Shown: in pieces, positions 1,060 through 24,942 of the stretch | Position numbering within the stretch: the first letter of the stretch is position 1 | Layout: every line of letters begins with the position of its first letter | Assembly: GCA_021372815.1 (NCBI GenBank) | Contig: JAJFTS010000225.1 | Span: 1 to 38,501, forward strand | Direction: 5' to 3' | DNA from: Deltaproteobacteria bacterium | GTDB lineage: Bacteria; Desulfobacterota; Syntrophia; Syntrophales; Smithellaceae | DNA: 38,501 nucleotides | Translations under genes and position numbers: made by a program | The notes under the pieces: model-generated | The model's input: the letters and a program-made list of their open reading frames with translations, nothing else | What the model was told of the DNA's origin: nothing | Databases searched by the model: none

Positions 1060-1088
1060 TTGACAAAAAATACCTTTTATTTGATAAT
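1060..1088 (+). promoter_or_regulatory. Sigma-70-type promoter of the gap-pgk-tpiA operon
   Basis: A perfect -35 TTGACA (1060-1065) is followed after 17 bases by GATAAT (1083-1088), five of six matches to the -10 consensus. Transcription would start near 1095, leaving a leader of only about 16 bases that consists mainly of the ribosome binding site GGAGGGG at 1101-1107. Confidence 0.75.
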
Positions 1089-1110
1089 TTTTCAAATGAA
1101 GGAGGGGAAT

Positions 1111-2109
1111 ATGTCGATAAAAATTGCCATTAACGGTTTTGGAAGGATTGGACGGCTTGTTTTTCGGGCCGGATATAAAAGCAAAGATGTGGAGTTTGTG
1201 GCGATCAATGATCTGGCCGATACTAAAACACTTGCTCACCTGCTCAAATACGATTCGACGCACGGCACACTGGATGCGGAAGTCAAAACCGGCAGCAATT
1301 CCATCATTGTTGACGGAAAAGAAATAAAAACATTTTCCGTCAGGGAACCGGAAACATTGCCGTGGAAAGATCTGGGGATCGATGTTGTTTTGGAGAGCAC
1401 CGGAAAATTTACGGATAAAACGGGTGCCGGAAAACATATCGAAGCGGGCGCCAAAAAAGTTGTGGTCTCCGCACCGGCGAAAAATCCCGATGTCACCTTT
1501 GTTCTCGGCGTCAATCAGGAAGTTTACGACAAAACCAAGCACAACATTATTTCCATGGGGTCGTGCACCACAAACTGTCTGTCTCCGATTGTTAAAATAC
1601 TGCATCAGGAATTCGGCATTGAATACGGCCTGATGACAACGATTCATTCCTTTACCAACGATCAGGTTGTTTTGGATGAACCACACAAGGATTTAAGAAG
1701 AGCGCGGGCAGCGTCTCTTTCCATGATACCAACAACGACCGGCGCGGCCAGGGCGATCGCGGAAGTTATTCCGGAAATGAAAGGAAAACTGGACGGACTG
1801 GCCATTCGCGTGCCGACGCCGAATGTTTCCCTGGTTGATTTTGTGGCAACGCTCTCAAGGGCAACCAATAAAAATGAAATCAACGATAAATTTCGTGAAT
1901 ACGCCAAAGGGGCGATGAAAGGAATTCTCGCGTGTTCGGAAGAAGAACTTGTTTCCCGGGATTTCAACGGCAACAAACATTCTTCCATCGTGGATATGCC
2001 CAACACAACAGTCATCGGCGGCAATATGGTCAAGATTCTCTCCTGGTATGACAATGAATGGGGCTTTTCCAACAGAATGCTGGAACTGCTTTCTTTTATA
2101 ATGAAATAG
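1111..2109 (+). CDS. gap: Glyceraldehyde-3-phosphate dehydrogenase, NAD-type
   Basis: Cytosolic enzyme of lower glycolysis and gluconeogenesis: oxidises glyceraldehyde 3-phosphate to 1,3-bisphosphoglycerate with NAD+ and phosphate. The 332-residue product has the normal length. Visible hallmarks are the Rossmann motif NGFGRIGR (residues 8-15), Asp34 at the end of beta-2 (typical of NAD+ preference), the active-site SCTTNCL with Cys152, the base His179 in THSFTNDQ, and WYDNEWGFSNRM near the end. ATG 1111 is chosen because GGAGGGG lies 4-10 bases upstream; a longer frame from 1060 would overlap the promoter. It is first in an operon with pgk and tpiA. A second, divergent GAPDH lies at 10185. 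Confidence 0.97.
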   Translation: MSIKIAINGFGRIGRLVFRAGYKSKDVEFVAINDLADTKTLAHLLKYDSTHGTLDAEVKTGSNSIIVDGKEIKTFSVREPETLPWKDLGIDVVLESTGKFTDKTGAGKHIEAGAKKVVVSAPAKNPDVTFVLGVNQEVYDKTKHNIISMGSCTTNCLSPIVKILHQEFGIEYGLMTTIHSFTNDQVVLDEPHKDLRRARAASLSMIPTTTGAARAIAEVIPEMKGKLDGLAIRVPTPNVSLVDFVATLSRATNKNEINDKFREYAKGAMKGILACSEEELVSRDFNGNKHSSIVDMPNTTVIGGNMVKILSWYDNEWGFSNRMLELLSFIMK

Positions 2110-2129
2110 ATAAAGATAAGGATTGGATT

Positions 2130-3308
2130 ATGAAGTACATTGATCAAATAGACATGAAAGGCAAAAGAGTTTTCCTGCGGGTCGATTTTAATGTCCCGAT
2201 GGATAAGGAAGGAAATGTTACCGGCGATAAGCGCGTGCGGGCCAGCATCCCGACGATTAATTACGCGCTGGATAAGGGGGCTAAATTAATCATCGCCTCC
2301 CATCTCGGCAGACCGAAAGGCAAGAGAGTTGCCGAGATGTCGCTCAAGCCGGTGGTCAAGGTTCTGTCGGGCCTTCTGCAAAAAGACGTCACGTTTTTGG
2401 ATGATTGTGTAGGACCGGCGGTGGAGCAGGCGGTCGGCAAAATGAAAGAAGGGGAGATCATCCTTCTGGAAAATCTCCGGTTTCAACCGGGCGAAGACAA
2501 AAACGACGCGGAGTTTGCCAAACAACTGGCTGCGCTTTGCGACATTTACATTGACGATGCGTTTGCCGTCTCGCACCGTGCCGCGGCTTCCAATTCGGCC
2601 ATTACTGAATTTGTGCCGGTGTGCGCAGCGGGATTCCTGCTGAAGAATGAAGTCGAATATTTCAAAAAAGCCATGGTCAATCCAGCCAAGCCTCTGGCGG
2701 CGATCATCGGCGGAGCGAAGGTTTCCGATAAAATCGGCCTTCTGGAGAATCTCATCGAAAAAGTGGATAAAATCATTATCGGCGGCGGGATGGCCTTCAC
2801 CTTTTTGCGGGCGGCAGGTTATGAAACCGGTAAATCGCTTTGCGAGGAAGACATGTTGGATACGGCACGCAGGATTGTGGATAAAGCCAAGCAGAAAAAC
2901 GTGCAGTTTTTATTGCCGGTAGACGCCGTGGTTGCTCAGGCCGCCACGGCAGAAGCCGAGGCCAAGGTCTGCGGCGTAAAAGAAATTCCCAAAGAATGGA
3001 TCGGTCTGGATATCGGACCGGCCACCATTGCTTTGTTCAGTGATGCTTTGAAAGGCGTCAAGACGGTTATCTGGAACGGCCCCATGGGGATGTTCGAACT
3101 AGCGTCTTTCAGCAAGGGAACGTTTGAACTGGCGGGGGCCGTAGCCAATTGCGGAGCGCTTTCCATTATCGGCGGCGGCGATACGGACACGGCCATTAAA
3201 AAAGCAGGCCTGAGTTCAAAGATGTCTTATATTTCCACCGGCGGCGGCGCTTTTCTGGAATGGCTGGAAGGAAAGACCCTGCCCGGCATTGCCGCGCTGG
3301 AAAAATAA
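2130..3308 (+). CDS. pgk: Phosphoglycerate kinase
   Basis: Transfers phosphate between 1,3-bisphosphoglycerate and ADP, the ATP-forming step that follows GAPDH. The 392-residue product has family length. The N-terminal substrate-binding segment KGKRVFLRVDFNVPMD, the HLGRPKG motif, the hinge region DDAFAVSHR and the C-terminal nucleotide-binding IIGGGDTDTA are all visible. ATG 2130 lies 20 bases after the gap stop, with AAGGA upstream; an upstream in-frame start would overlap gap. Cotranscribed with gap and tpiA. Confidence 0.97.
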   Translation: MKYIDQIDMKGKRVFLRVDFNVPMDKEGNVTGDKRVRASIPTINYALDKGAKLIIASHLGRPKGKRVAEMSLKPVVKVLSGLLQKDVTFLDDCVGPAVEQAVGKMKEGEIILLENLRFQPGEDKNDAEFAKQLAALCDIYIDDAFAVSHRAAASNSAITEFVPVCAAGFLLKNEVEYFKKAMVNPAKPLAAIIGGAKVSDKIGLLENLIEKVDKIIIGGGMAFTFLRAAGYETGKSLCEEDMLDTARRIVDKAKQKNVQFLLPVDAVVAQAATAEAEAKVCGVKEIPKEWIGLDIGPATIALFSDALKGVKTVIWNGPMGMFELASFSKGTFELAGAVANCGALSIIGGGDTDTAIKKAGLSSKMSYISTGGGAFLEWLEGKTLPGIAALEK

Positions 3309-3325
3309 TATTGAGGTATTAAACC

Positions 3326-4084
3326 ATGAGAAAATGGATTGTAGCCGGCAACTGGAAAATGCACAACACCATTGCCGAATCAATCGCTCTGGCCAAAGCC
3401 ATTAAAGAAGGATCAGCCGGTATTCAGAGCGGAGCCATTGTTTTAGCTCCGCCTTTCACCGCTCTTTTCAGCGTCGGCGAAACAATAAAAGGCTCGAACT
3501 TATCACTGGCCGCGCAGAATATGCATTATGAAGACAAGGGAGCCTTTACGGGTGAAATTGCCCCGTCCATGCTCAAAGATACCGGATGCGCTTACGTAAT
3601 TCTCGGCCATTCGGAGCGTCGGAAGTATTTTCATGAACGGGATAATGACGTTAATCTGAAAGTCAAAAAAGCTCTGACCTCGGGGTTGATTCCCATCATG
3701 TGCGTGGGAGAGACCGACGAGGAAAGAGAGAAAGGTGTAACGCAGGATGTTGTCGGCAGACAGGTGCAGCAGGGTTTAAACGGCGTCGAAAAGATTGAAA
3801 ATGTCGTTATCGCCTATGAACCGGTCTGGGCGATCGGTACCGGAAAAGTCGCCACATCCGCGCAGGCGCAGGAAGTGCACGCCTTTATTCGCGGCCTCCT
3901 GAAAAATACCTTCGGCGGCAAAAAGGCTGATGATATTTGTATTCTCTACGGTGGAAGCGTTACCAAAGATAATGTCGGCGATTTGATCGCCATGAATGAT
4001 ATTGACGGCGCACTGGTCGGTGGAGCGTCTTTAAAAGCCGATGGATTTCTGGGAATCATCAAAGAAATTTCCGGAAGAAAATAA
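3326..4084 (+). CDS. tpiA: Triosephosphate isomerase
   Basis: Interconverts dihydroxyacetone phosphate and glyceraldehyde 3-phosphate. The 252-residue barrel protein has the catalytic residues in place: Lys11 in GNWKMH, His95 in LGHSERR and Glu165 in AYEPVWAIGTG, plus the phosphate-binding GGS and GGASL loops. It begins 17 bases after pgk and closes the gap-pgk-tpiA operon; a hairpin follows at 4110. Confidence 0.97.
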   Translation: MRKWIVAGNWKMHNTIAESIALAKAIKEGSAGIQSGAIVLAPPFTALFSVGETIKGSNLSLAAQNMHYEDKGAFTGEIAPSMLKDTGCAYVILGHSERRKYFHERDNDVNLKVKKALTSGLIPIMCVGETDEEREKGVTQDVVGRQVQQGLNGVEKIENVVIAYEPVWAIGTGKVATSAQAQEVHAFIRGLLKNTFGGKKADDICILYGGSVTKDNVGDLIAMNDIDGALVGGASLKADGFLGIIKEISGRK

Positions 4085-9622: not shown

Positions 9623-10184
9623 GAGATTCTCCTTTCGTCAAACTAATTAATATTACTACAGATTACCGATACGAGCAAGAATTTCGATAAAGCGAGAGCC
9701 ATTTTTTATATTTCTTCACAAATTATTTTTTCTCTTCAAGTCAATTGTTTATTCTTAAAAACAAATGAGTTACACCGCCGCCGGAACTCGATTGGTGTAA
9801 TTTCCCGGTTTCCGCTATTGACTTTTCTCCGTATTCCCTGTAAGAAATCCGTGACCTTTTAAGGGAGATAGTAGATGGTCCCGGTCACCACCAAACCTTA
9901 TTTAAATAGTTTTGTCTTATTCAGACGGCAGGGGGAGTCCCTGCATCATTTTTTATTAATCAAAGATAAAATCAAAAAATATTTTACCGCCTGCTTAAAC
10001 GATAGGCAAGGGTGTGCAAGCATTTTATTCCCCATCCTTTGCCGGATCATTCGACCGGCGAGATTCGTTGCGCTCCGTTTCCGGAGATTTGAGCCGAGGA
10101 CAATTTACAGTGATGACGGTGCTGTTGACGTAACAGCTGATATTAAATTTTGTGTTTCACCAATTCAAGAAGGAGGATTTTAAC
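9623..10184 (+). other. 562-base non-coding stretch with a candidate promoter
   Basis: No convincing gene is present. A candidate promoter for the downstream GAPDH is TTGACT (9818-9823), 17-base spacer, TAAGAA (9841-9846), which would give a leader of about 330 bases. Within it, AAGGGAG at 9861 precedes an ATG at 9875 that opens a 102-codon frame running to the GAPDH start; the arginine-rich product resembles nothing I know and I do not call it. A long leader before a metabolic enzyme could carry regulation, but I recognise no riboswitch. Confidence 0.4.
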
Positions 10185-11453
10185 ATGGCACAAGCTCAGG
10201 TATTTGAGAATAAAAAGCCGGTGCTCGGCATCAATAGTCTGGGAAGAATAGGAAAATTAACATTGTGGCATCATATTAACCGGAAATATTTTAAAGAAAT
10301 TATCATCAATCAGGGACGGGAAATAGGCACGGGGCTTGATTCTGTCGTCCAGGCGATAGAAAAAGACTCCACCTACGGTCTGATGCATAAATTTTTATAT
10401 GGAGTAAAAGCGGAAAGATTCATTGAGATTGTCGATGAAAAACAGGGGAAACTGCTGATTGACGGCATTCCCGTGACGGTTCTGCGTGAAGCCAGAAATC
10501 CCGCCGATATTCCGTGGCGGCAGTACGGCGCGGACATCGTTGTGGACTGCACGGGAAAATTCAAGGATCCGACGGTGGCGTCGGACAACAAAAGCGGCTC
10601 CATTCGCGGACATTTAAATGGCGGAGCGAAAGTAGTGATCAACTCGTCTCCTTTCAAAATCAAAAACAAGGCCCTCTCTCTGCCGGAGGATGCTGCGACC
10701 ATGATTTACGGGATCAATCACACGTCGTTTAATCCCAAAAAACATCTGATTGTTTCCGCCGCATCCTGTACGACCACGGGACTGGCTCATATGGTCAAGC
10801 CTCTGCTGGAAAATGAAGAAACAAGCAATATTCTGACAGCGTCCATGTCCACCGTTCATGCGGTGACCAATACCCAGAGCGTGCTGGATAGTGTTCCCAA
10901 GGCCGGCGAAAAAGATTTGAGGAAAAACCGGAGCATTCTGGACAGCATCATTCTGACGTCCACCAATGCCGCTAAAGCGCTGGCGGAAGTCATTCCCCAG
11001 GTCCAGAACATCGGCTTCATGGCTGATTCCATCAGAATACCGGCCAGCACCATGTCCCTGATTGTCCTGAACGCAACTTTCCAGGCGCGTCGGGGTGCGG
11101 CGACGACCATTAACACAAAAATGCTCAACGAATTATACAGCAAAGCGGCTGCCAATAATCCCGATAAACTGATGAGATTCACGATGGAACAAAACGTGTC
11201 TGCCGATCTTTTCGGCATTGACGCAGCCGTAATCATTGAAGGTCAGTTTAATCACACGCGGACAGCATTCATTAATCTGGATTGCTCACATATTCCGAAT
11301 CTGCCCGCGGATATTGCCAAGGCGTTTCCCGAAAAGGTTTTGAAAGTGCCCGTTGTTCATGCCAAAATATTCGGCTGGTATGATAATGAATACGGCAGCT
11401 ACACCAACAGGATGGGGGATCTGACGGTTTACATCCACAAGAATATTTTATAA
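10185..11453 (+). CDS. Divergent long-form glyceraldehyde-3-phosphate dehydrogenase
   Basis: A 422-residue GAPDH-superfamily enzyme, about 90 residues longer than the gap product at 1111. Active-site Cys195 (ASCTTTGL) and His225 (STVHAVTN) are kept, as is GWYDNEYGSYTNRM at the end. Differences are NSLGRIGKLTLW for the usual NGFGRIGR, Gln/Gly in place of the Asp that selects NAD+ (INQGREIG), an insertion around residues 120-160, and TTTGL for TTNCL. It resembles the long second GAPDH known from some gammaproteobacteria, which has been linked to gluconeogenesis; direction and cofactor here are inferred. ATG 10185 follows AAGGAGGATTTTAAC. Confidence 0.85.
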   Translation: MAQAQVFENKKPVLGINSLGRIGKLTLWHHINRKYFKEIIINQGREIGTGLDSVVQAIEKDSTYGLMHKFLYGVKAERFIEIVDEKQGKLLIDGIPVTVLREARNPADIPWRQYGADIVVDCTGKFKDPTVASDNKSGSIRGHLNGGAKVVINSSPFKIKNKALSLPEDAATMIYGINHTSFNPKKHLIVSAASCTTTGLAHMVKPLLENEETSNILTASMSTVHAVTNTQSVLDSVPKAGEKDLRKNRSILDSIILTSTNAAKALAEVIPQVQNIGFMADSIRIPASTMSLIVLNATFQARRGAATTINTKMLNELYSKAAANNPDKLMRFTMEQNVSADLFGIDAAVIIEGQFNHTRTAFINLDCSHIPNLPADIAKAFPEKVLKVPVVHAKIFGWYDNEYGSYTNRMGDLTVYIHKNIL

Positions 11454-11514: not shown

Positions 11515-14500
11515 CTATTCGGATTCGCTTTCATGCTTCCCCATATAAACAGTGCCGCTCCAGCCGTCGATGCTGATAAAATCCCCCGATTTTATAATGT
11601 GTTCTTCGATGGTTGCGTACCCATCAGTCTCGTAAACCTTGAGCTTGCTGAAACCAACGACGCCGACCTTGTTGATCTGCGGAATAGTTACCGCGGCATG
11701 CGAAGTACTTCCGCCTTTGGCTGTAAGCAGTCCTTCAACCAGCAAAAGAACCCCGACGTCATCAGGAACGGTATCGGGGCGTACCAGAATGAGAGGCGTT
11801 TGGGGCTCCTCGCTGCGAAAACGCTTGATATCCGTTTCCGAATAAACCGCTCTGCCGCACAACGCGCCGCCGTTCACCCCAATGCCTGTTCCGAGAACGG
11901 ATGATTGTAATATTTTCGTATCCTTGAATCGTCTCCATTTTTGCGTCGTGATCTGGTTCATGTCGCGGGTCTGCAGAATATACAGCTTGTCCCTTGTCTG
12001 TCCTTCAAAGGTAAATTCGATTTCCTGATGATTGAAACCCTTTTCGTAAATCAGTATTTCGGAAATTCTCAACAACTCTTTGTAAATTTCAGGGAATTTC
12101 GCTTCCAGCGAAATCGTTGAATCCCTGTATTCCGTAATTCTTTGTTTTTCCGAAATAGGATATGTTTCCACCAGACCGGAGACGATGTCATCTCCCTGCA
12201 CGCCGAAAATAAAATCTCCGTAAAGGGTTACATCGGAAGAAGAGCTTTTCGGCTCCCGGGTGAAAATAACCCCTGACCCTGAATTTTCATCGAGATTTCC
12301 GAAGACCATCTTCTGGACAATGACGGCAGTTCCCCATTTATCGGAAAGATGCATTTGATGGCGGTAAATTTCCGCCTGTTCCGAATACCAGGAATCGAAG
12401 ACCTGCAAAATGGCATGCCGCAGCTGATCCAGCGGTTTATCTTTGAACTCAATGCCGTGGTCTATTAGTCCTTTCTTATAGGAAAGAGCGATTTGTTTCA
12501 TCTGCCCCGGTGGAAACTGAATCTTTCTTTCCACGCCGTATTTTTGCTTGAATTCATTGATGATCGCGTCGAAATAATTCCGGTCCATTCCCTGGAACAT
12601 GCCCCATGTCTGCAAGAACCGGCGATAAGAATCCCATGACGCCCATTTGAATTTTTCCTGCTCACTGAGATTTTCCGCGATTGCTTCATTGATGCCCACG
12701 TTCAAAAAGGATTTCATCATCCCCGGAAGAGAAACCGTGGCGCCGCTTCGAACCGACAGAAGCAATGGATTGCGCCGGTCGCCGAATTTACGGCCGGTTA
12801 TTTTTTCCAGCCGTCTGATTTCCTTGTTGACCCGGACAGCGAGATCATTAAAAATATATTTATAACCGTAAACCGCGTCATATCCTCTGAAAACTTCCGT
12901 GGTGATGATAAATCCCGGAGGCACGTTGAAGCCGAAGGAGATCAATTCTTTGAGGAAATATCCCTTGTTGCCGAGAAGGATCTGGTTATCCAGTTTTTTA
13001 TCTTTTTTGTAAAACGAGGAAACCGTCAATTCCGGGTTATAGGCCATCACAACTTTTAAAATCTGTTGATTGTCCTTGAATTTTTCCGATTCGGCATTGA
13101 GGGTTTTGATGACCGCGTTGACAAAATTATCCAGTACCTGAATACCGAAAGCCGAAGATATCAAACTTCGGATAAAATTTTCCGAGTGCTGATAAATTAA
13201 TTTTTCATTTTTTTTATGTCCTGATTTTGTATCGGTTTCAGCGTCCCGATGATATATCTGCCTGATGATGACGGAAAGATTGGCGCCGTGAACCTCTATG
13301 TAATTGTTGCGAATAATATCCTGAATATCCTTGGATATGAAACGGAAGATATCCACGTATTGTTCCAGGGAAAACTGCTTTATGGACAGGGCGTTCGTGA
13401 CGTACTTGATTTTCGACGCCAGTCCTTCCGTGGCAATTCCCTCCATTTCCAGAGCACTGACGTAAAGCCAGAGATATGTGTGTATTTTTTTAATTGTTTG
13501 CTTGGTAATGAATTTCAGATTGAATGACTGACCCATTTCTTCAAAAAGCATCGTAGCCAGGCTTTCCAGCCTCAGGGACAGACCAACCGCCTCGAACTTC
13601 TTTTCATAGTAGGTGCCATACATGGAAGGAATTCCTGCCGCAATATGCCTTTTATAATAAATGTTTTCATAAGACGGCGTTTTCTTCGGAGAAACAATTC
13701 GTTCCTTCAAGACGGATAAAAATTTCAGAATAATCGTAATGCTGCGGTAATAATTTTTGGTGTTCAAAGCACGTTTCAGCGATGTTATATCAGCTTTGGG
13801 AAAAGCATTGACCGTTTCCAGATCTTTCAGCAAATCGATAAACAGCGGATAATATTTTTTGTAAAGCAACTGGTACATACGGATCATGATTTTGATCCGT
13901 TCCTGATCTCTTTCATTAACGCCCCTGACGTGATTCAGTTCCCGGCAGACCTTTTCCTTATCCCAGTTGAGAAAGTTCAGAGGGGTATTATTGATTTTTG
14001 TGAAAAAATATCGAAAAGCTTTATGCATTCCGTCGAAATATTCTCCGGAATTCAGAACCTGCGCGTAAACTTCATCGGGAATATGCTCACGCAGAAAATT
14101 CTTATTGCCGGAGCTCCAGTATTGAAAAATATCCTCGATAAATTTGACCAGCAGACTGTTGCTCTCCACGTGTGATTGTTTTCGTAAAAAGTAAATCAGC
14201 TTGTCATCACGGAAGGAAAGCTCATCAACTTTGGTTGATATTTCCCTTAACTCGCCTTCCGCTCCTATTTCATTGAAATAGACGGGGAAAATCCTGAGAA
14301 GCTGTTTTATCAGATTGTACGCCGGGGCGATGTCGCTGTTAAGCAGGGTGGAAATATCTTTCTGGATAAGATCTGTGTCCCGGACAAAAACTCCACCCAT
14401 TTTTAAATTGATGATCAGCGCGGAAATCAATTTTTTTGTCCATCTCGGTTTCATTCCGATAATCTCCAGCCAGGAGCGGATATTGATGATATGAGCCGGA

Positions 14501-15732
14501 TTGACTTTAACCTGCCACTCTTCGGTTGATCCGCTAATTTCAGGATGCTGGAAACCGTAAGCGATCAACTCGTCAATAAACGTGTCCACAAGGGGATGAT
14601 TGTCCTGTGCAAAAACCTCTTTAGCCGTCGTTGTTATGCAATCAAAAATCGCCGTGCTGAATTCATACTGGGATTTGTTTTTTTTCAGGAAACCGAATAT
14701 TTTGCGTACAAAGTCGGGAAGACTTTCCTTCCTGGCTTCCTGGAAAACCATTTTCAAAGAATGATTGATTTCCCTGAGCGCGCTGGCGTGGATGTCGGCA
14801 AGACTGGGAATATCCATTACATTAAGCAGAAACCGAAGTTTTACGAGATGCTGTCGTCCCTGGTACGTTTCTGACTTTTCCAGTTGATCGGCGGTCAGCA
14901 AATACCCGTTTACGATCTGGAAATAATCGGGCAGATCAAGATAGAGTTTTATTCCGTCGTTGTTTTCTTTCTGTTTGTCCGGACAAAGATTTTCCAGCTT
15001 TTCAATGAGTACTTGCAGATATCCGTGGCTCAACGGCTGGATGAATTGCCTGTAGGTGTTAATGGATTCCTCGGTTTCTCCATCTCCCGTGATCAGCCAT
15101 TCGGACGGATCCGGCTGGGCAAGCCAGAACTGATAGGTGATTTTGAAAGTTTTATACGCTAAACTTTCAAACAGAGGAATCCGGATGTTCAGGTCTCTTT
15201 GGGTAATACTGTTAATGATTCTTTTCATGTAAAAAGAGCATTTCTTAAAGATAACCGGATATTGATCGACAAAATCGGTCAGCGACTGGGCGAACTCGGT
15301 AAAAAGATTCAGATTTCTCGGAAGAAATTCGTTACTCTGTGTGAGTATCGTATCCATATAGTCGAACAAATAATGTATCGCACTGTCTTTCACGTCATCG
15401 CTGGATGAAGATTCGATAACATCAAGATAAATGCGCAGCATAATGGAAAGAGCGGAGAGACCGTCCTGATGATTATTGTAGATGTAGAAGTCTCCGATGG
15501 AAACCGATTTCAATTCTTTCAGCACATATTCCCAGTTTACAAAGGGATGGTTTAATTCCGTCAGAAGTTCGCGGGTCTTTTTTTGCAGACCGTAGTGGTT
15601 CTGGGCAACTTTAAGCAATGGAGAATACTGATCCGGAATTTCTATGGCCACGGCCGTCCTCTCCAGATTTACTTTCAGAGCGGATGAGCCCAGTTCCTCG
15701 CTTTTTTTATTTGGATTATTTTTGTTTGCCAT
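11515..15732 (-). CDS. PPDK/PEP-synthase-like protein: long N-terminal region, ATP-grasp and phosphohistidine domain, no PEP barrel
   Basis: A 1405-residue protein. Residues 1 to about 910 are helix-rich with no motif I recognise. From about 915 it follows the nucleotide-binding half of pyruvate phosphate dikinase/PEP synthase: LLGNKGYFLKEL...VPPGF, SVRSGATVSLPGMM (about 987), GSGVIFTREP, and the IEFTFEG...LYILQTRDM end of the ATP-grasp. The swivelling phosphohistidine domain follows, with GLLTAKGGSTSHAAV and His1345. The protein stops 60 residues later, so the C-terminal PEP/pyruvate-binding barrel is absent. By analogy with glucan water dikinase and rifampin phosphotransferase it could autophosphorylate on His1345 and pass phosphate to another acceptor, perhaps bound by the N-terminal region. 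Acceptor unknown. Start codon ATG has AAAGGT upstream. Confidence 0.85.
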   Translation of the reverse strand: MANKNNPNKKSEELGSSALKVNLERTAVAIEIPDQYSPLLKVAQNHYGLQKKTRELLTELNHPFVNWEYVLKELKSVSIGDFYIYNNHQDGLSALSIMLRIYLDVIESSSSDDVKDSAIHYLFDYMDTILTQSNEFLPRNLNLFTEFAQSLTDFVDQYPVIFKKCSFYMKRIINSITQRDLNIRIPLFESLAYKTFKITYQFWLAQPDPSEWLITGDGETEESINTYRQFIQPLSHGYLQVLIEKLENLCPDKQKENNDGIKLYLDLPDYFQIVNGYLLTADQLEKSETYQGRQHLVKLRFLLNVMDIPSLADIHASALREINHSLKMVFQEARKESLPDFVRKIFGFLKKNKSQYEFSTAIFDCITTTAKEVFAQDNHPLVDTFIDELIAYGFQHPEISGSTEEWQVKVNPAHIINIRSWLEIIGMKPRWTKKLISALIINLKMGGVFVRDTDLIQKDISTLLNSDIAPAYNLIKQLLRIFPVYFNEIGAEGELREISTKVDELSFRDDKLIYFLRKQSHVESNSLLVKFIEDIFQYWSSGNKNFLREHIPDEVYAQVLNSGEYFDGMHKAFRYFFTKINNTPLNFLNWDKEKVCRELNHVRGVNERDQERIKIMIRMYQLLYKKYYPLFIDLLKDLETVNAFPKADITSLKRALNTKNYYRSITIILKFLSVLKERIVSPKKTPSYENIYYKRHIAAGIPSMYGTYYEKKFEAVGLSLRLESLATMLFEEMGQSFNLKFITKQTIKKIHTYLWLYVSALEMEGIATEGLASKIKYVTNALSIKQFSLEQYVDIFRFISKDIQDIIRNNYIEVHGANLSVIIRQIYHRDAETDTKSGHKKNEKLIYQHSENFIRSLISSAFGIQVLDNFVNAVIKTLNAESEKFKDNQQILKVVMAYNPELTVSSFYKKDKKLDNQILLGNKGYFLKELISFGFNVPPGFIITTEVFRGYDAVYGYKYIFNDLAVRVNKEIRRLEKITGRKFGDRRNPLLLSVRSGATVSLPGMMKSFLNVGINEAIAENLSEQEKFKWASWDSYRRFLQTWGMFQGMDRNYFDAIINEFKQKYGVERKIQFPPGQMKQIALSYKKGLIDHGIEFKDKPLDQLRHAILQVFDSWYSEQAEIYRHQMHLSDKWGTAVIVQKMVFGNLDENSGSGVIFTREPKSSSSDVTLYGDFIFGVQGDDIVSGLVETYPISEKQRITEYRDSTISLEAKFPEIYKELLRISEILIYEKGFNHQEIEFTFEGQTRDKLYILQTRDMNQITTQKWRRFKDTKILQSSVLGTGIGVNGGALCGRAVYSETDIKRFRSEEPQTPLILVRPDTVPDDVGVLLLVEGLLTAKGGSTSHAAVTIPQINKVGVVGFSKLKVYETDGYATIEEHIIKSGDFISIDGWSGTVYMGKHESESE

Positions 15733-15934: not shown

Positions 15935-16255
15935 TTATTTCTTTTTTGCCGTTTTTTTTGCGGTCTTTTTTGCGGGTTTTTTTGATTTCTTTTTGGCAAC
16001 GGTTTTTTTTACAGATTTCTTTTTCGCAACCGGTTTTTTCTTTGGTGTCGCTTTTTTTACGGTTTTTACTGTTGTAATTTTTTTCGGCACCGCCGCCACG
16101 GTGTGAGCTTTCTTTGTTTTTGCCGGGCCCAGATTGACCATCGGTTCTTCGCAGCAAATAAGATCAATTGTAGCACAACCGCATTCCTCGTCTACAATCA
16201 CTTTTAGTCCGCATACTTCACAACTCAGAACATCTCCAGCTTTTGCTCTCGACAT
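15935..16255 (-). CDS. Desulforedoxin-like domain fused to a histone-H1-like lysine/alanine tail
   Basis: A 106-residue protein in two parts. Residues 10-40 match the desulforedoxin / desulfoferrodoxin N-terminal Fe(Cys)4 site: CEVCG (Cys12, Cys15), then CC (Cys34, Cys35) followed by EEPM; extra cysteines lie at 25 and 27. From about residue 46 the chain is almost only Lys, Ala, Thr, Val and Pro in repeats such as KKTAKK, like the C-terminal tails of histone H1 and bacterial H1-like nucleoid proteins. It is strongly basic and likely binds DNA or RNA. A redox- or metal-responsive nucleoid protein is an inference. GAGGAGGA precedes ATG; a terminator follows. Confidence 0.8.
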   Translation of the reverse strand: MSRAKAGDVLSCEVCGLKVIVDEECGCATIDLICCEEPMVNLGPAKTKKAHTVAAVPKKITTVKTVKKATPKKKPVAKKKSVKKTVAKKKSKKPAKKTAKKTAKKK

Positions 16256-16519: not shown

Positions 16520-18478
16520 ATGCCGTTAAAGAAGGAACAAAAATATCGAAGCTGGGTGGAAGTTGATCTTGATCATTTCATCGGCAATCTGAAAGAAATA
16601 AAAAGGCTCATCGGCCCGAAAGTCGATTTTATGATGACGGTTAAAGCCGACGCTTACGGGCATGGCGCCATAGAAATATCGAATGTTGCGCTGAAAAACG
16701 GCGCGCGAATGCTGGGTGTGGCCAACGCCGACGAAGGCGTGCAGTTAAGAATCAGCGGCATCGAAGCGCCCATCGTTATTTTAGGTCCTTCAACCACCGC
16801 CGAAATCGAGCAGATTATCAAATACAACCTTACCCCTTCTGTTTCGGATCTTGTTTTTGCAAGGAAATTAAATACCGCGCTTGTAAAATCCGGCCGGAAG
16901 CTACCGGTGCATATCGAAGTGGATACGGGAATGGGACGCGGCGGAACCATGCATACCGAGGCTGTAAAACTTGTCCTCGATATGTCCGGATTATCCAGCC
17001 TTAAACTGGAGGGAATTTTCAGTCACTTTGCTTCCAGCGAAAAAATGATTTCTTATAACGACATGCAATGGAAATATTTTTCGGATTTACTGGCCGATAT
17101 CGAGTATCGTGGAATCCGTATCCCCGTCCATCATATAGACAACAGCGGCGCGATTTTAAATTATCCCGCCTATAAATTGAACATGGTCCGGCCGGGCATT
17201 ATGACCTACGGCATATATCCCTCGCCGGAAAACGAATCAAAGGCCCGGCTTGCGCCGGTGATGTCTTTTAAAACCAGCATTGTTTTGCTGAAAGATTTTC
17301 CGGCAGGATACGGTATCGGTTACAACAGCACCTTCGTAACCTCTCGGCCGACGCGTATTGCGACAATTCCGGTCGGTTACGGTGACGGTTACGCCTTTAT
17401 TCTCTCCAATAAGGGCGAAGCGTTGATCCGGGGCAGGCGTGCGCCCATTGTCGGACGGATTTCGATGGACATGTGCACGATTGACGTTACCCATATTCCC
17501 GATTGCAGAGTCGGCGATGAGGTCGTTTTGCTGGGCAGACAGGGAAAAGAATATATCAGCGCCAACGAAATTGCCGCCAAGGCCCAGACCATCAGCTATG
17601 AAGTTCTCTGCGCTCTGGGAAAAAGAGCGCCGCGGATTTTTCTGCAGAAAGGAAGAAAGGAAACATTCGAGCCCCGATTGCGGCGGATATTTATTCCGGA
17701 AGAGGAAAAATCCATTTCCCGTATCGACAGCATTATTCGTCACTGCATGCAGACGCGCGCGCGCAACGAAGAACTCGGCGACGCTATTTATTACGAAATG
17801 TTTGAAACTCTGTTCGGCAATGAAGACCGGCGACTCGAGCTGCGTTCCGGCTTCCGCTACAACATTCGCATCGGACGGGCGCCGAAAACGAAAGCTTTCG
17901 GAAATTCCGAAAATTATTTTCGTGTCAGCACGCATGTCGAATATAAGAAGATCATTCGCGATAATGTTTTTATGATCGGCTGCGCTTCCAGTAATGCGCA
18001 GCTGTCTGCGTTGTTTGAAGATCCGCGCTGCGAATACCGCTGGCTTTTAAGCGACGGCAAGACCTTGTCCCTCGAAAGAGATTTCACCGTCGAACAGGTG
18101 CGCATTGACAACGAAATCATTCCCATCATCGAAACAAAAAAGACAAAACGCGGATATGAAGTCTGGTGCGGCTCCGAAGAGCTGAAGAAAAAAATAAACA
18201 ATGAAGTTAAAATCGAAATAGAAATTGCCACATGGCAGTCAAAAGAAAAACGCATCTTTCCCGTTTATCTTGTTTATCCGGTAAGAGGTCTGAAAATAAA
18301 TTTCAACTACGAAAACGCAAATCTGAAGAATGTTTTTGAAGAGAGCTTTTTCGCGGGAAGACATCCCCATCCGATTGTCTTGAAAAAGAAAGACAAGTCC
18401 ATCAGCGTAAAGATATCCGACAAAGAATGGATTTTCCCCACCAGCGGCGTCATTTTTATCTGGGAAGGTCAAAGGTAA
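16520..18478 (+). CDS. alr: Alanine racemase with an extra C-terminal domain of about 280 residues
   Basis: PLP enzyme that interconverts L- and D-alanine for peptidoglycan. Residues 1 to about 372 are a complete racemase: PLP Lys42 in TVKADAYGHG, HIEVDTGMGRGG, FSHFASSE, MVRPGIMTYG, and Tyr264 in AGYGIGY as the second base. Normal enzymes end near 360-390 residues; here the chain continues to 652. The extension (RIFIPEEEKSISRID, LELRSGFRYNIRIGRAPKTK, a lysine-rich strand near 545, GRHPHPIVL near 610) is not one I recognise and shows no catalytic motif. The start has no good Shine-Dalgarno (weak GGGTAA). Converges on a diguanylate cyclase, whose stop is 3 bases away. Confidence 0.92.
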   Translation: MPLKKEQKYRSWVEVDLDHFIGNLKEIKRLIGPKVDFMMTVKADAYGHGAIEISNVALKNGARMLGVANADEGVQLRISGIEAPIVILGPSTTAEIEQIIKYNLTPSVSDLVFARKLNTALVKSGRKLPVHIEVDTGMGRGGTMHTEAVKLVLDMSGLSSLKLEGIFSHFASSEKMISYNDMQWKYFSDLLADIEYRGIRIPVHHIDNSGAILNYPAYKLNMVRPGIMTYGIYPSPENESKARLAPVMSFKTSIVLLKDFPAGYGIGYNSTFVTSRPTRIATIPVGYGDGYAFILSNKGEALIRGRRAPIVGRISMDMCTIDVTHIPDCRVGDEVVLLGRQGKEYISANEIAAKAQTISYEVLCALGKRAPRIFLQKGRKETFEPRLRRIFIPEEEKSISRIDSIIRHCMQTRARNEELGDAIYYEMFETLFGNEDRRLELRSGFRYNIRIGRAPKTKAFGNSENYFRVSTHVEYKKIIRDNVFMIGCASSNAQLSALFEDPRCEYRWLLSDGKTLSLERDFTVEQVRIDNEIIPIIETKKTKRGYEVWCGSEELKKKINNEVKIEIEIATWQSKEKRIFPVYLVYPVRGLKINFNYENANLKNVFEESFFAGRHPHPIVLKKKDKSISVKISDKEWIFPTSGVIFIWEGQR

Positions 18479-20889: not shown

Positions 20890-22215
20890 TTATAAACCCA
20901 TTGCACCTGTATTTATATCAGGCCATAGAACTACTTCTTTGCACACTCTTTTTATGGCTTTTACGCCTCCATCTTGAGAGACGACAAAGATGACAGCTTC
21001 TTCAAAACTTGAACAAAATCTAAATGCAGACCTATGACGTGTACCAAATGATTCTATAGGAATCCTTTGAATAGTTTTAGATCTAACTTCTATTTTAACT
21101 TCTTTTAGAGAGGGTGAGATTGCTAAAACTTCTGCTCCAAAACCCAATACTTTCAATTTATCAGTTAGAACAACCGCCCCATCTACAGAAGTCATAGAAG
21201 CTATTGCCCGTGCAGCATCACCTATAGCTTCATCAAGATCATCTCTTTTACTTGATAGCATATGATATTCTTGGAAATTATTTTGGGTAATTTCTAATTT
21301 TGCGTCCCATAAAGGGAAATGAAGATCGAAATATTTACGTTCATTAACCAAACAACTCGTCATCATTTCCCAAGCATAATCATAAGAACAAGGGTATTTA
21401 AGATTTAAGCGGTCTGTCAATCGTGTATCATCTTTGCTTACGTAATCAGGCACAATTATTAAAGTGCCACCATGGGATTTTTCCCTTACATAAAATAAAA
21501 TTCTTTCTATGAAAAAATTGTAAAACCTATACGGGTAGTCATCATCTTGACCTTCTTCATCCCAAGATTTTGTACCTAATGCTGTGATAACAGATTGGTA
21601 TAATTTATTTCGTGCAGTTTGAAGAAAGTCACATATAGATCCATCCCATATGGCTGTGTCCTTAGGATAAACCAATTTACCGCCTTTAAGAGTTGTTAAT
21701 ACATCTCCTGCTGCTGAAATAGACAATTCCCCTGCATTCATACTGGTTATGGCGAAATAATTTGGAGGCGACATGCCGCTATGTGTTTCATTGTGGACAA
21801 ATTTCCACCAATTTTCACCTACATCCAGTAAACCCCAAATTTCAAGAGATGATTTTCTATTATTTTGTGAAGAATTTGATACGCAAATCATTAAATGAGT
21901 TAATTCTGCAGCGGGTGCGAGCCTATTTAATTCTGATACACTATACGGACGAGGAGTATCAAAATTAATAATTCGCCATCGATTATCGGAATGCTTATCT
22001 ATTTCTTTTATCATAGTCTCAAAAGACACATATAAAATTCGAAATCCCGTTCTACGACCTTCTTCGGTTAAGAAACTTGCATGAAATGCAGTATCCAATA
22101 GAACGTGAAGTTCTTCATCGGGTGGTAGGGTTGGAGGCTTCCCATACTTTCTTTTTTCTAATTTCGTGCAAACATTTTTTAAGGCTGGAATTATATCTTT
22201 GGGGTAAGCGTTCAT
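20890..22215 (-). CDS. Diadenylate-cyclase-like protein (DisA_N/DAC domain) with long N-terminal sensor-like region
   Basis: A 441-residue protein. The C-terminal part has the two signatures of DAC domains that make c-di-AMP from ATP: DGA (SVDGAVVL, Asp345) and RHR (FGTRHRSAF, His394), followed by AVIFVVSQDGG. The N-terminal 310 residues resemble the DACNV-type sensor regions found with such domains; I am less sure of that. ATG 22215 is chosen (AGGA five bases upstream) over a GTG at 22227 that touches the insertion element. The gene is visibly AT-richer than its neighbours, suggesting transfer. Its probable promoter now lies beyond the IS at 23507. No CBASS-type effector is next to it. Confidence 0.72.
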   Translation of the reverse strand: MNAYPKDIIPALKNVCTKLEKRKYGKPPTLPPDEELHVLLDTAFHASFLTEEGRRTGFRILYVSFETMIKEIDKHSDNRWRIINFDTPRPYSVSELNRLAPAAELTHLMICVSNSSQNNRKSSLEIWGLLDVGENWWKFVHNETHSGMSPPNYFAITSMNAGELSISAAGDVLTTLKGGKLVYPKDTAIWDGSICDFLQTARNKLYQSVITALGTKSWDEEGQDDDYPYRFYNFFIERILFYVREKSHGGTLIIVPDYVSKDDTRLTDRLNLKYPCSYDYAWEMMTSCLVNERKYFDLHFPLWDAKLEITQNNFQEYHMLSSKRDDLDEAIGDAARAIASMTSVDGAVVLTDKLKVLGFGAEVLAISPSLKEVKIEVRSKTIQRIPIESFGTRHRSAFRFCSSFEEAVIFVVSQDGGVKAIKRVCKEVVLWPDINTGAMGL

Positions 22216-22257
22216 ATTATTCCTCACTGATCTTCCCCCGAAAAAGTGGACACCCCA

Positions 22258-23082
22258 CTAAGATACACTCGCATTCCTTTCATGTTCGGCGGGAGAGCAA
22301 TAATTTAACGCCGAATGTCTTCTAACACGATTATAAAATAATTCAATATACTCAAATATGCTCCCTCGTGCTTCCCGCCTGGTCTGATACTTCTCAAAAT
22401 AAATAAGCTCTGTCTTTAACGTATGGAAAAATGATTCCATCATGGCGTTGTCGTAACAATTCCCTGAAGAACTCATGCTCTGAACAAAACCATATCGCTC
22501 CATAAGATCACGAAAAGCATAACTGGTATACTGGGTGCCACGATCTGAATGGAACATAACTCCAGTTTCCGGTCTCCTCTGGCGTATAGCCTTGCTTAAT
22601 GCATCAGCAAGGAGTTCATGGCTCAGCTTGCTATCTATAGACCATCCAACGATCTGACGGTTAAAAACATCCAAAATCGCTGCCAGATATAGCCAACCCT
22701 CTCGCGTCCGTATAAAGGTAATATCAGAAACCCATACCTTGTTGGCCTTCTCTGCCGAAAATCTCTGATTCAGAAGATTCTCGGCTACCAAACAATCATG
22801 TTTGTATTTTGTCGTCGCCTTGAACCTGCGCTTGGTCTTTGCTTTAATGCCATTTTGCTTCATCAAACGGGCAACGCGATTCTTTCCGCATAGTATCCCT
22901 TTAGACTTCAGTTCCGCCGTCACTCGGGGACTCCCGTATGTACCTCGACCCCTTACGTAAGCCTCCCGAATATGCAACAACAGTCTTTCATTTTCCTCCC
23001 GGAGAGTACTCCCAATATCTGCTCTTGACCATTTATAATAACCGCTCCTGGATATTTCCAGAACCCGGCACATCTTCTTCAC
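22258..23082 (-). CDS. IS3-family transposase OrfB (DDE integrase core)
   Basis: A 274-residue product with an HTH_21-type region near the start and an rve integrase core. The DDE triad is visible: Asp in VWVSDITF, Asp in MFHSDRGTQY and Glu in MMESFFHTLK. The open frame continues upstream of ATG 23082 (EKYQFIADHRSEYSVKK), as expected if the active protein is the OrfAB fusion made by frameshifting at 23154-23160. Confidence 0.95.
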   Translation of the reverse strand: MKKMCRVLEISRSGYYKWSRADIGSTLREENERLLLHIREAYVRGRGTYGSPRVTAELKSKGILCGKNRVARLMKQNGIKAKTKRRFKATTKYKHDCLVAENLLNQRFSAEKANKVWVSDITFIRTREGWLYLAAILDVFNRQIVGWSIDSKLSHELLADALSKAIRQRRPETGVMFHSDRGTQYTSYAFRDLMERYGFVQSMSSSGNCYDNAMMESFFHTLKTELIYFEKYQTRREARGSIFEYIELFYNRVRRHSALNYCSPAEHERNASVS

Positions 23083-23664: not shown

Positions 23665-24810
23665 TTAAATGCCTTCTGTTTTTATTTCCAACTTCTTCTC
23701 ATGCCTATCCAAGGCAAGTTCAATCAATTTATCTAAAAGATCACCGTATTTGAGTCCGGTGGCTTCCCACAGTTTTGGATACATGCTGATGCTGGTGAAT
23801 CCGGGCAGGGTGTTTATTTCGTTAAGATAGAATTTACCGGTTTTCTTATCCAGGAAGAAATCGACCCGTGCCATGGAAGTACAGCCGAGCGCCATATAGC
23901 CTTCCACGGCGATCTTTCTGATCTTATCGGAAAGGGATTTGTTGATTTGGGCGGGAATTTTCAGCGCCGCGCCGTTGGGATCAATATACTTGGCTTCATA
24001 GGAATAAAATTCATGCTGGGGAATTATTTCGCCCAGAACCGATCCGGCGGGTTTTTCATTGCCCAGAACGGCGCATTCGATTTCGCGGCAGTCAATCGCC
24101 TTTTCAATCATTACACGATTGTCAAACTGAAAAGCGAAATTCATCGCCGCTGCGAGCGATTCTTTTTTCTTCACTTTCTTTACGCCCACGGAGGAGCCGG
24201 TGCAGACCGGTTTGACAAAAAGCGGCAACCCCAGTTTGGCCAGAGCGTCCTTCATAATATTTTTGGCGTTAGCGTTCTCCCGCCAGTGCTGTTTATTTAC
24301 AGTTACGGAAGGCACAACCGGAATACCTTTCTCTTTGAGCAATCTTTTGGCAATATCTTTATCCATGCCCACAGCCGAGCCGATGACATCCGCGCCCACA
24401 TAAGGCACCATCGCCAGTTCCAGCAGTCCCTGCAGAGCGCCGTCCTCACCAAACGTTCCGTGCAGTACGGGAATCACAACATCCACAATCACTTCTTTAT
24501 TTTTGTTTTTGATATCATAGAGATGGAGTTTGTTTTTCTGCTCAAAATGATTAACAAGCCATGTGCCCTTTTTTTTCAGGGCCATTTTTCTGCCAAAATC
24601 CTTATCGGAAATAATTTCGGGATTTTCCTGAACGTACCAGCGGCCGTCTCTATCGAGACCGATGGCTGTTACTGTATATTTATTGCGGTCAAGAGCAGAG
24701 AAAACCGAAGCCGCGGAACAAAGCGAAACATCGTGCTCGCCCGACCTGCCGCCGTATAAAACGCCTATTCTTATTTTGGGAGCTTTTTTCAAACCTGTTT
24801 TCATCGTCAT
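23665..24810 (-). CDS. ddl: D-alanine--D-alanine ligase
   Basis: ATP-grasp ligase joining two D-Ala for peptidoglycan, the step after alanine racemase. About 381 residues. Visible are YGGRSGEHDVSL at the N-terminus, HGTFGEDGALQGLLE, the PYVGADVIGSAVGMDK loop, GSSVGVKKV in the ATP-grasp, and the metal/substrate segment LNEINTLPGFTSISMYP. The length and the FGRKMALKK insertion suit the longer DdlA type. ATG 24810 has AAGGA five bases upstream; ATG 24825 or 24816 are alternatives. The MITE-like repeat may form its 3' structure. Confidence 0.95.
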   Translation of the reverse strand: MTMKTGLKKAPKIRIGVLYGGRSGEHDVSLCSAASVFSALDRNKYTVTAIGLDRDGRWYVQENPEIISDKDFGRKMALKKKGTWLVNHFEQKNKLHLYDIKNKNKEVIVDVVIPVLHGTFGEDGALQGLLELAMVPYVGADVIGSAVGMDKDIAKRLLKEKGIPVVPSVTVNKQHWRENANAKNIMKDALAKLGLPLFVKPVCTGSSVGVKKVKKKESLAAAMNFAFQFDNRVMIEKAIDCREIECAVLGNEKPAGSVLGEIIPQHEFYSYEAKYIDPNGAALKIPAQINKSLSDKIRKIAVEGYMALGCTSMARVDFFLDKKTGKFYLNEINTLPGFTSISMYPKLWEATGLKYGDLLDKLIELALDRHEKKLEIKTEGI

Positions 24811-24942
24811 ATTCATCCTTGCCATCGGGAGATTTATTTGTCTTATGATTACCGGTTAGATATACGCTTTGAACGCCGAAGTTGTCAATTTAATTTTGGT
24901 ATTTATCCGTTTGCAATGAGATACGGCATTGAAACCGGAGCC

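Follow-up and report, generated by a model that had tools for sequence, protein, structure and literature searches.

We analysed a 38,501-nucleotide stretch of DNA (the window) from a member of the Smithellaceae within the Desulfobacterota (GCA_021372815.1, contig JAJFTS010000225.1), in which an unusual relative of pyruvate phosphate dikinase (PPDK) is encoded beside a divergent relative of glyceraldehyde-3-phosphate dehydrogenase (GAPDH). The dikinase gene occupies 11515..15732 on the minus strand, starts with ATG and encodes 1405 residues. The GAPDH-like gene lies at 10152..11453 on the plus strand, convergent with the dikinase gene and separated from it by 61 bp; its product is 433 residues long as called from a GTG, with a likelier ATG start about 11 codons in. 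An initial annotation of the dikinase had proposed a PPDK-like phosphotransferase without the PEP/pyruvate barrel and with about 910 novel N-terminal residues. It missed the role of the adjacent GAPDH-like gene, which is a near-obligate genomic partner of the dikinase.

Domain architecture of the dikinase

Pfam identified PPDK_N (E 4e-32, best stretch 965-1266) and the PEP-utilizers mobile domain (E 2e-11, residues 1313-1393) in the 1405-residue protein, and gave no match to the PEP-utilizers_C barrel (PF02896). The best NCBIfam model was PPDK (TIGR01828), with 367 bits against a cut-off of 843, compared with 65-76 bits for the PEP synthase models and 35.7 bits against a cut-off of 999 for rifampin phosphotransferase (NF041857), so that the protein stays below the cut-off of both the PPDK and the rifampin phosphotransferase model. 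The solved PPDK structure 1kbl aligns to residues 917-1258 and 1269-1403. Together, these matches delimit a PPDK-type ATP-grasp at residues 911-1259 (11956..13002, minus strand) and a phosphohistidine swivel domain with the motif GGSTSHAAV at residues 1277-1403 (11524..11904, minus strand), and they bear out the annotated order of an ATP-grasp followed by His1345.

His1345 (codon 11698..11700, minus strand) is the predicted phosphorylated histidine. It lies in GGSTSHAA, aligns with the 1kbl histidine and is invariant in a 47-sequence alignment whose members share 42-86% with the window dikinase. The chain ends exactly 60 residues further on, and these last 60 residues complete the His domain. 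Residues K923, R995, E1239, Q1254, R1256 and H1345 correspond to PPDK K22, R92, E323, Q335, R337 and H455, whose roles in that enzyme are known, and all six are invariant in 16 orthologues. These conserved residues and the predicted fold strongly imply that His1345 is phosphorylated from ATP, an assignment in which we have good confidence.

An AlphaFold2 (AF2) model of residues 381-1405 (1025 residues, 47 sequences) reached a predicted local distance difference test score (pLDDT) of 85.5 and a predicted template modelling score (pTM) of 0.71. Its residues 901-1405 match residues 2-515 of 1kbl with a Z-score of 41.4 and a root-mean-square deviation of 2.4 Å over 475 residues, a match that covers the entire ATP-grasp and His part of PPDK and none of its barrel. 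The model fits 1kbl and 1dik more tightly than 2r82, which represents a different conformational state.

The absence of the barrel, as originally annotated, holds across the family. A contig scan with the N-terminal 905 residues recovered at least 479 relatives, of which 80 were kept for analysis. Those that are complete at the 3' end and reach the His motif all stop 55-69 residues past the histidine, and the complete relatives, of about 1384-1451 residues, all follow the same barrel-less plan. Because of this uniform C-terminal end, a 3' frame error concealing a barrel is ruled out and the absence is real. The initial annotation had argued against a frame error from the convergent GAPDH gene downstream; it was right that there is none, but the GAPDH gene is a conserved partner rather than a bystander. 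It had also suggested a profile search for a barrel encoded elsewhere. This search found no stand-alone barrel in the source assembly, which is 91% complete: PF02896 occurs only in a complete, normal PPDK on contig C265 and in PtsI, which is split between contigs C93 and C172. The two parts of PtsI overlap identically, and HPr precedes the gene. Within this 91% complete assembly, a separate barrel gene is rejected.

The dikinase family is widespread and not a one-off. Full-length orthologues were found in most genomes of the same genus, in further genera of the family and in two more families of the order. The 80 relatives kept come mostly from Syntrophaceae/Smithella and other Desulfobacterota, and also from Nitrospirota, Nitrospinota, Acidobacteriota and Riflebacteria.

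N-terminal and middle domains

At the sequence level, the novelty claimed for the N-terminal part was confirmed: no Pfam family matches residues 1 to ~905, and a profile search against the PDB gave nothing credible. An AF2 model of residues 1-905, built from 15 close sequences, is all-helical with a mean pLDDT of 69, and a fold search of this model against the PDB returned no match with E < 0.001, only generic helical-repeat entries. These were the structure prediction and fold search proposed in the initial annotation.

Two regions can be distinguished within this part. Residues 1-380 (14593..15732, minus strand) are a variable region, modelled as an all-helical, solenoid-like structure, which differs in distant subfamilies; the similarity of distant relatives begins only at residue ~370-413. 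Residues 381-900 (13033..14592, minus strand) form a mostly helical middle domain, supported by the 47-sequence alignment and the AF2 model, with the strongest conservation within the N-terminal part; we regard it as the likely acceptor or partner domain. It has no Pfam family in most members. A Foldseek search of the whole 381-1405 model found nothing significant for the middle domain, while the C-terminal half matched PPDK and rifampin phosphotransferase (RPH); the RPH entries aligned only to residues 897-1399, and this search, which barely probes whether the middle domain shares the rifampin-binding fold, leaves room for a known fold there.

The middle domain contains the conserved motifs EIGAEGELR, RKQSHVES and KRHIAAGIPSMYGTY, and residues H414, R496, R517, K518, H521, R612, K626, K694, R695, H696 and R855 are invariant in the 47-sequence alignment. 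These roughly eleven invariant Arg, Lys and His residues would be in keeping with the binding of a ligand that is phosphorylated or acidic. The middle domain may replace the missing barrel as the part that holds the acceptor. The annotated idea that the N-terminal part serves as acceptor site or partner dock is probably correct, and the polysaccharide that it named as a possible acceptor is unsupported.

A GAPDH-like gene as genomic partner

When the genes around the 80 dikinase relatives were clustered, the GAPDH-like gene was by far the commonest neighbour. Of the 60 loci with 1.5 kb or more of flanking sequence, 45 have it directly downstream of the dikinase gene (17 convergent and 28 co-directional; median gap 85 bp). 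The GAPDH-like gene was also present somewhere in 14 of 15 genomes checked, most of them picked for a missing neighbour, the exception being a Riflebacteria assembly (L064/G440).

Genome surveys extended this pattern, with absences that depend on the threshold of the search itself (E 1e-55 or better for the GAPDH-like protein). Among 394 Desulfobacterota genomes of at least 90% completeness, 128 carry both genes, none carries the GAPDH-like gene alone, three carry a remote dikinase alone and 263 carry neither; the dikinase N-terminus (131 genomes) and the GAPDH-like protein (128 genomes) thus differ in distribution only by the three remote-dikinase genomes. In 148 genomes of the Nitrospirota, the phylum of locus L112, the GAPDH-like protein occurs in 21, exactly those with a strong dikinase match, and six more have a remote dikinase only. 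Across 75 genera, the strong-class dikinases show no exception to the pairing. The two genes lie within 6 kb of each other in 96 of the 128 Desulfobacterota pairs. In three genomes (G070, G222 and G413) both are retained 1-2.4 Mb apart on one contig, and in G325 the large apparent distance is probably due to the contig ends of a circular chromosome. We therefore consider it highly probable that the dikinase is functionally paired with the GAPDH node.

The partner retains the hallmarks of a GAPDH together with features of its own. Pfam detects Gp_dh_N and Gp_dh_C, and the type I GAPDH model TIGR01534 scores 283.9 bits, below its cut-off of 367.2. The catalytic Cys206 and His236 are kept in 49 of 49 proteins, as are Thr207, Thr239 and Thr271, and Arg295 and a WYDNE motif are present in all proteins that reach them. 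The phosphate-site residues for substrate and Pi are retained. The Asp that usually contacts the NAD ribose is lost, and an invariant NxGR motif in that region suggests the use of NADP. Pfam and NCBIfam showed neither a receiver nor an HPr-like or any other phospho-acceptor domain in the protein. In four genomes of one genus (G084, G119, G250 and G434), no canonical GAPDH is present, the GAPDH-like protein is the sole Gp_dh_C protein above cut-off, and phosphoglycerate kinase (PGK) is encoded. Because it is the only Gp_dh_C protein in these four PGK-containing genomes, the enzyme very probably acts on the glyceraldehyde-3-phosphate/1,3-bisphosphoglycerate pair.

Triose-phosphate gene context

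Genes of the triose-phosphate segment accompany the pair. The window carries its own canonical gap (1060..2109; Pfam Gp_dh_N/C), pgk (2058..3308, with a called start overlapping gap; Pfam PGK E 8e-162) and tpiA (3326..4084; Pfam TIM) at 1060-4084, all on the plus strand of the contig that encodes the dikinase. Of 63 genomes, 31 have a canonical gap gene immediately upstream of the dikinase gene and five more have it just past the GAPDH-like gene, and two Thermodesulfobacteriales loci (L069 and L076) have the order gap-dikinase-gapL-pgk-tpi in one direction. One genome (G405) encodes two dikinases, on contigs C64 and C14; the GAPDH-like gene adjoins one of them and a canonical GAPDH gene the other. 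A second genome with two dikinases is G423 (C3 and C4).

Two simple substitution roles were rejected. Replacement of a missing canonical GAPDH is ruled out as a general role, since it would hold in only four of the 80. Replacement of a missing PGK is likewise ruled out: of 60 relatives, 58 encode PGK and the other two are only 71-75% complete. All seven additional genomes examined encode it as well, and hence it is present in every adequately complete genome tested.

Remote dikinases and other genes

Two remote subfamilies share the barrel-less plan. The dikinases at L126:6349-10830, L127:5734-10365 and L128:6873-11330 have 1485-1543 residues and an altered His loop, GGRGAHAAD. Each is directly followed by a 592-residue protein, and the one scanned (L127) is a GAF and sigma-54 activator protein. 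It is possible that this type is a signalling version of the same engine. A second subfamily (L122-L125 and L130; 1451-1510 residues) keeps the TSH motif and has a different N-terminus (LDYLVGTLATAYKG); no GAPDH-like gene and no common neighbour were seen at its loci.

Several other genes were noted around the dikinases. In the window, a small ORF just upstream on the same strand (15935-16255, minus) has a sub-threshold match to the desulfoferrodoxin N-terminal domain. A 652-residue ORF (16520-18478, plus) carries alanine racemase domains that end at residue 373, and its remaining ~280 residues have no Pfam match. Further away, an ORF with a DACNV sensor domain and a weak DisA-like DAC domain (20890-22227, minus) lies near an IS3-type transposase (22258-23082) and a D-Ala-D-Ala ligase (23665-24825). 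Elsewhere, a QueE-like radical SAM gene is divergent upstream of the dikinase gene in several Nitrospirota loci (L107:9283-9903 and similar), and a GNAT acetyltransferase gene lies upstream in Syntrophobacter-type loci (L079:9448-10104).

Proposed role and alternative explanations

Our best reading, which we put forward tentatively, is that the protein is a three-part His-swivel dikinase that acts at the GAPDH/phosphoglycerate node and may be the AMP-forming equivalent of PGK. As in PPDK, the ATP-grasp would phosphorylate His1345 at the expense of ATP, yielding AMP and probably PPi, after which the His domain would swivel and deliver the phosphoryl group to an acceptor bound in the helical middle domain (~381-900). 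The dikinase would then act with the adjoining divergent GAPDH at this node; the pairing rests on genome data, and the reaction is what we infer from it. The likeliest acceptor would be the 3-phosphoglycerate/1,3-bisphosphoglycerate couple, an assignment that we hold to be plausible yet doubtful, in which case the dikinase and GAPDH-like enzyme would form an arm parallel to PGK and canonical GAPDH. The pairing is most simply explained by a chemistry in which the carboxylate of 3-phosphoglycerate receives the phosphate, so that the GAPDH-like enzyme is provided with substrate for sugar formation. In its specific form, an AMP-forming phosphoglycerate dikinase would transfer phosphate from its phosphohistidine to 3-phosphoglycerate and give the resulting 1,3-bisphosphoglycerate to a dedicated NADP-type GAPDH; this is a possibility that we judge rather unlikely as stated. 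The AMP-forming reaction would drive the parallel arm towards sugar synthesis, as PPDK does relative to pyruvate kinase.

Several points weigh against this proposal. Since every adequately complete genome tested has PGK, production of 1,3-bisphosphoglycerate alone would not require the module, and a regulatory role on GAPDH becomes nearly as likely. The acceptor is not readable from the sequence, and the middle domain resembles nothing known in Pfam, the PDB or Foldseek searches. A regulatory function is hinted at by the distant subfamily L126-L128, whose neighbour is a sigma-54 activator and not a GAPDH. In addition, the Fisher p-value of 1e-101 for co-occurrence ignores shared ancestry, overstates the evidence and should not be taken literally.

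The main rival, possible but short of probable in our estimation, is a regulatory phosphotransferase that senses ATP, AMP and PPi (energy charge) and either phosphorylates the GAPDH-like protein, the canonical GAPDH or both, or binds them through its solenoid, thereby switching pathway direction or cofactor. What accompanies the dikinase is a complete GAPDH of one type or the other, and not a domain that it lacks; the large helical region, as modelled, would be fit for docking; distant relatives adjoin the sigma-54 activator; and PTS Enzyme I has a similar His domain. However, the invariant basic and histidine residues of the middle domain are more typical of a phosphometabolite site, and a regulatory target is not apparent in the domain content of the GAPDH-like protein. 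We give less credence to a dikinase for another triose or sugar acid, such as glyceraldehyde, dihydroxyacetone, glycerate or an erythrose-4-phosphate derivative, that feeds the GAPDH-like enzyme. The ATP-grasp/His engine can serve varied small acceptors, as RPH and HpeHI demonstrate (PMC4844700, PMC12167813), and the retained phosphate site of the GAPDH-like enzyme would suit such a product, whereas the four genomes in which this enzyme is the only GAPDH speak for the ordinary glyceraldehyde-3-phosphate reaction, and pgk and tpi adjoin in some lineages.

It is improbable that the dikinase runs in reverse, making ATP from AMP and PPi with 1,3-bisphosphoglycerate as a means of saving energy in syntrophs and sulfate reducers, where AMP and PPi arise from activation reactions. 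Such a role would fit a sequence far closer to PPDK, which is reversible and Pi/PPi-coupled, than to PEP synthase, but the dikinase also occurs in genomes labelled Nitrospira, where the energy-saving logic is weaker, and the pathway is expected to run mainly towards sugar in these organisms. The polysaccharide acceptor of the initial annotation was not borne out, and a glucan- or polysaccharide-phosphorylating dikinase with N-terminal carbohydrate-binding modules is very improbable: glucan water dikinase (GWD) does have the same ATP-grasp and His plan, but Pfam detects no carbohydrate-binding family here, the N-terminal ~900 residues are predicted to be all-helical, the domain order is unlike that of GWD, and the neighbours are GAPDH and other triose-phosphate genes.

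Significance

GAPDH with PGK, or non-phosphorylating bypasses, is the accepted view of the segment between glyceraldehyde-3-phosphate and 3-phosphoglycerate. The two-gene module stands at this node in about one third of the sampled Desulfobacterota and about one seventh of the sampled Nitrospirota genomes, and the dikinase probably performs a function in central sugar metabolism that has yet to be described. We found no description of a barrel-less PPDK with a GAPDH in these taxa in a literature search whose coverage left out most subscription journals. We see a realistic prospect that the pair catalyses a central-metabolic reaction not seen before. Whether it proves to carry out a novel phosphoryl transfer or to control GAPDH in a novel way, it would extend central metabolism substantially, and a phosphoglycerate dikinase would add a central-metabolic reaction in hundreds of anaerobic and chemolithotrophic bacteria. 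The gene pair is directly testable in cultured sulfate reducers, and the labels 'PEP synthase', 'PPDK' and 'GAPDH' can meanwhile mislead metabolic reconstructions of these organisms.

Comparison with known systems

PPDK (TIGR01828, 1kbl) shares with the dikinase the ATP-grasp and phosphohistidine domains, their order, the ATP-site residues and the fold over 475 residues. It differs in its C-terminal PEP/pyruvate barrel, which the dikinase lacks, and in lacking the ~900 extra helical N-terminal residues; the source genome carries a separate normal PPDK beside the barrel-less enzyme. Type I GAPDH shares Gp_dh_N/C, the catalytic Cys and His and the phosphate-site residues with the partner, but has ~335 residues, whereas the partner has ~425 with several inserts and NxGR in place of the lost Asp. 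GWD likewise combines an ATP-grasp with a phosphohistidine and forms AMP. Its histidine precedes the ATP-grasp, and it has starch-binding modules and a starch context. In the dikinase, Pfam finds no carbohydrate-binding module and the histidine follows the ATP-grasp.

Further parallels are found where another acceptor part takes the place of the barrel, as in RPH (PMC4844700) and HpeHI (PMC12167813). RPH (5hv1-5hv3) shares the ATP-grasp and the C-terminal His swivel, with the barrel replaced by a different acceptor domain. In RPH this domain lies between the ATP-grasp and the histidine, whereas in the dikinase residues 911-1259 run directly into 1277-1403 with no such domain between, and the putative acceptor domain stands ahead of both, with no sequence match to that of RPH and no antibiotic context. 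HpeHI and phenylphosphate synthase, two- or three-component aromatic dikinases, share barrel-less dikinase chemistry with a non-pyruvate acceptor. These enzymes split the ATP-grasp and the His/acceptor parts between subunits, whereas the dikinase described here is a single chain with a GAPDH partner.

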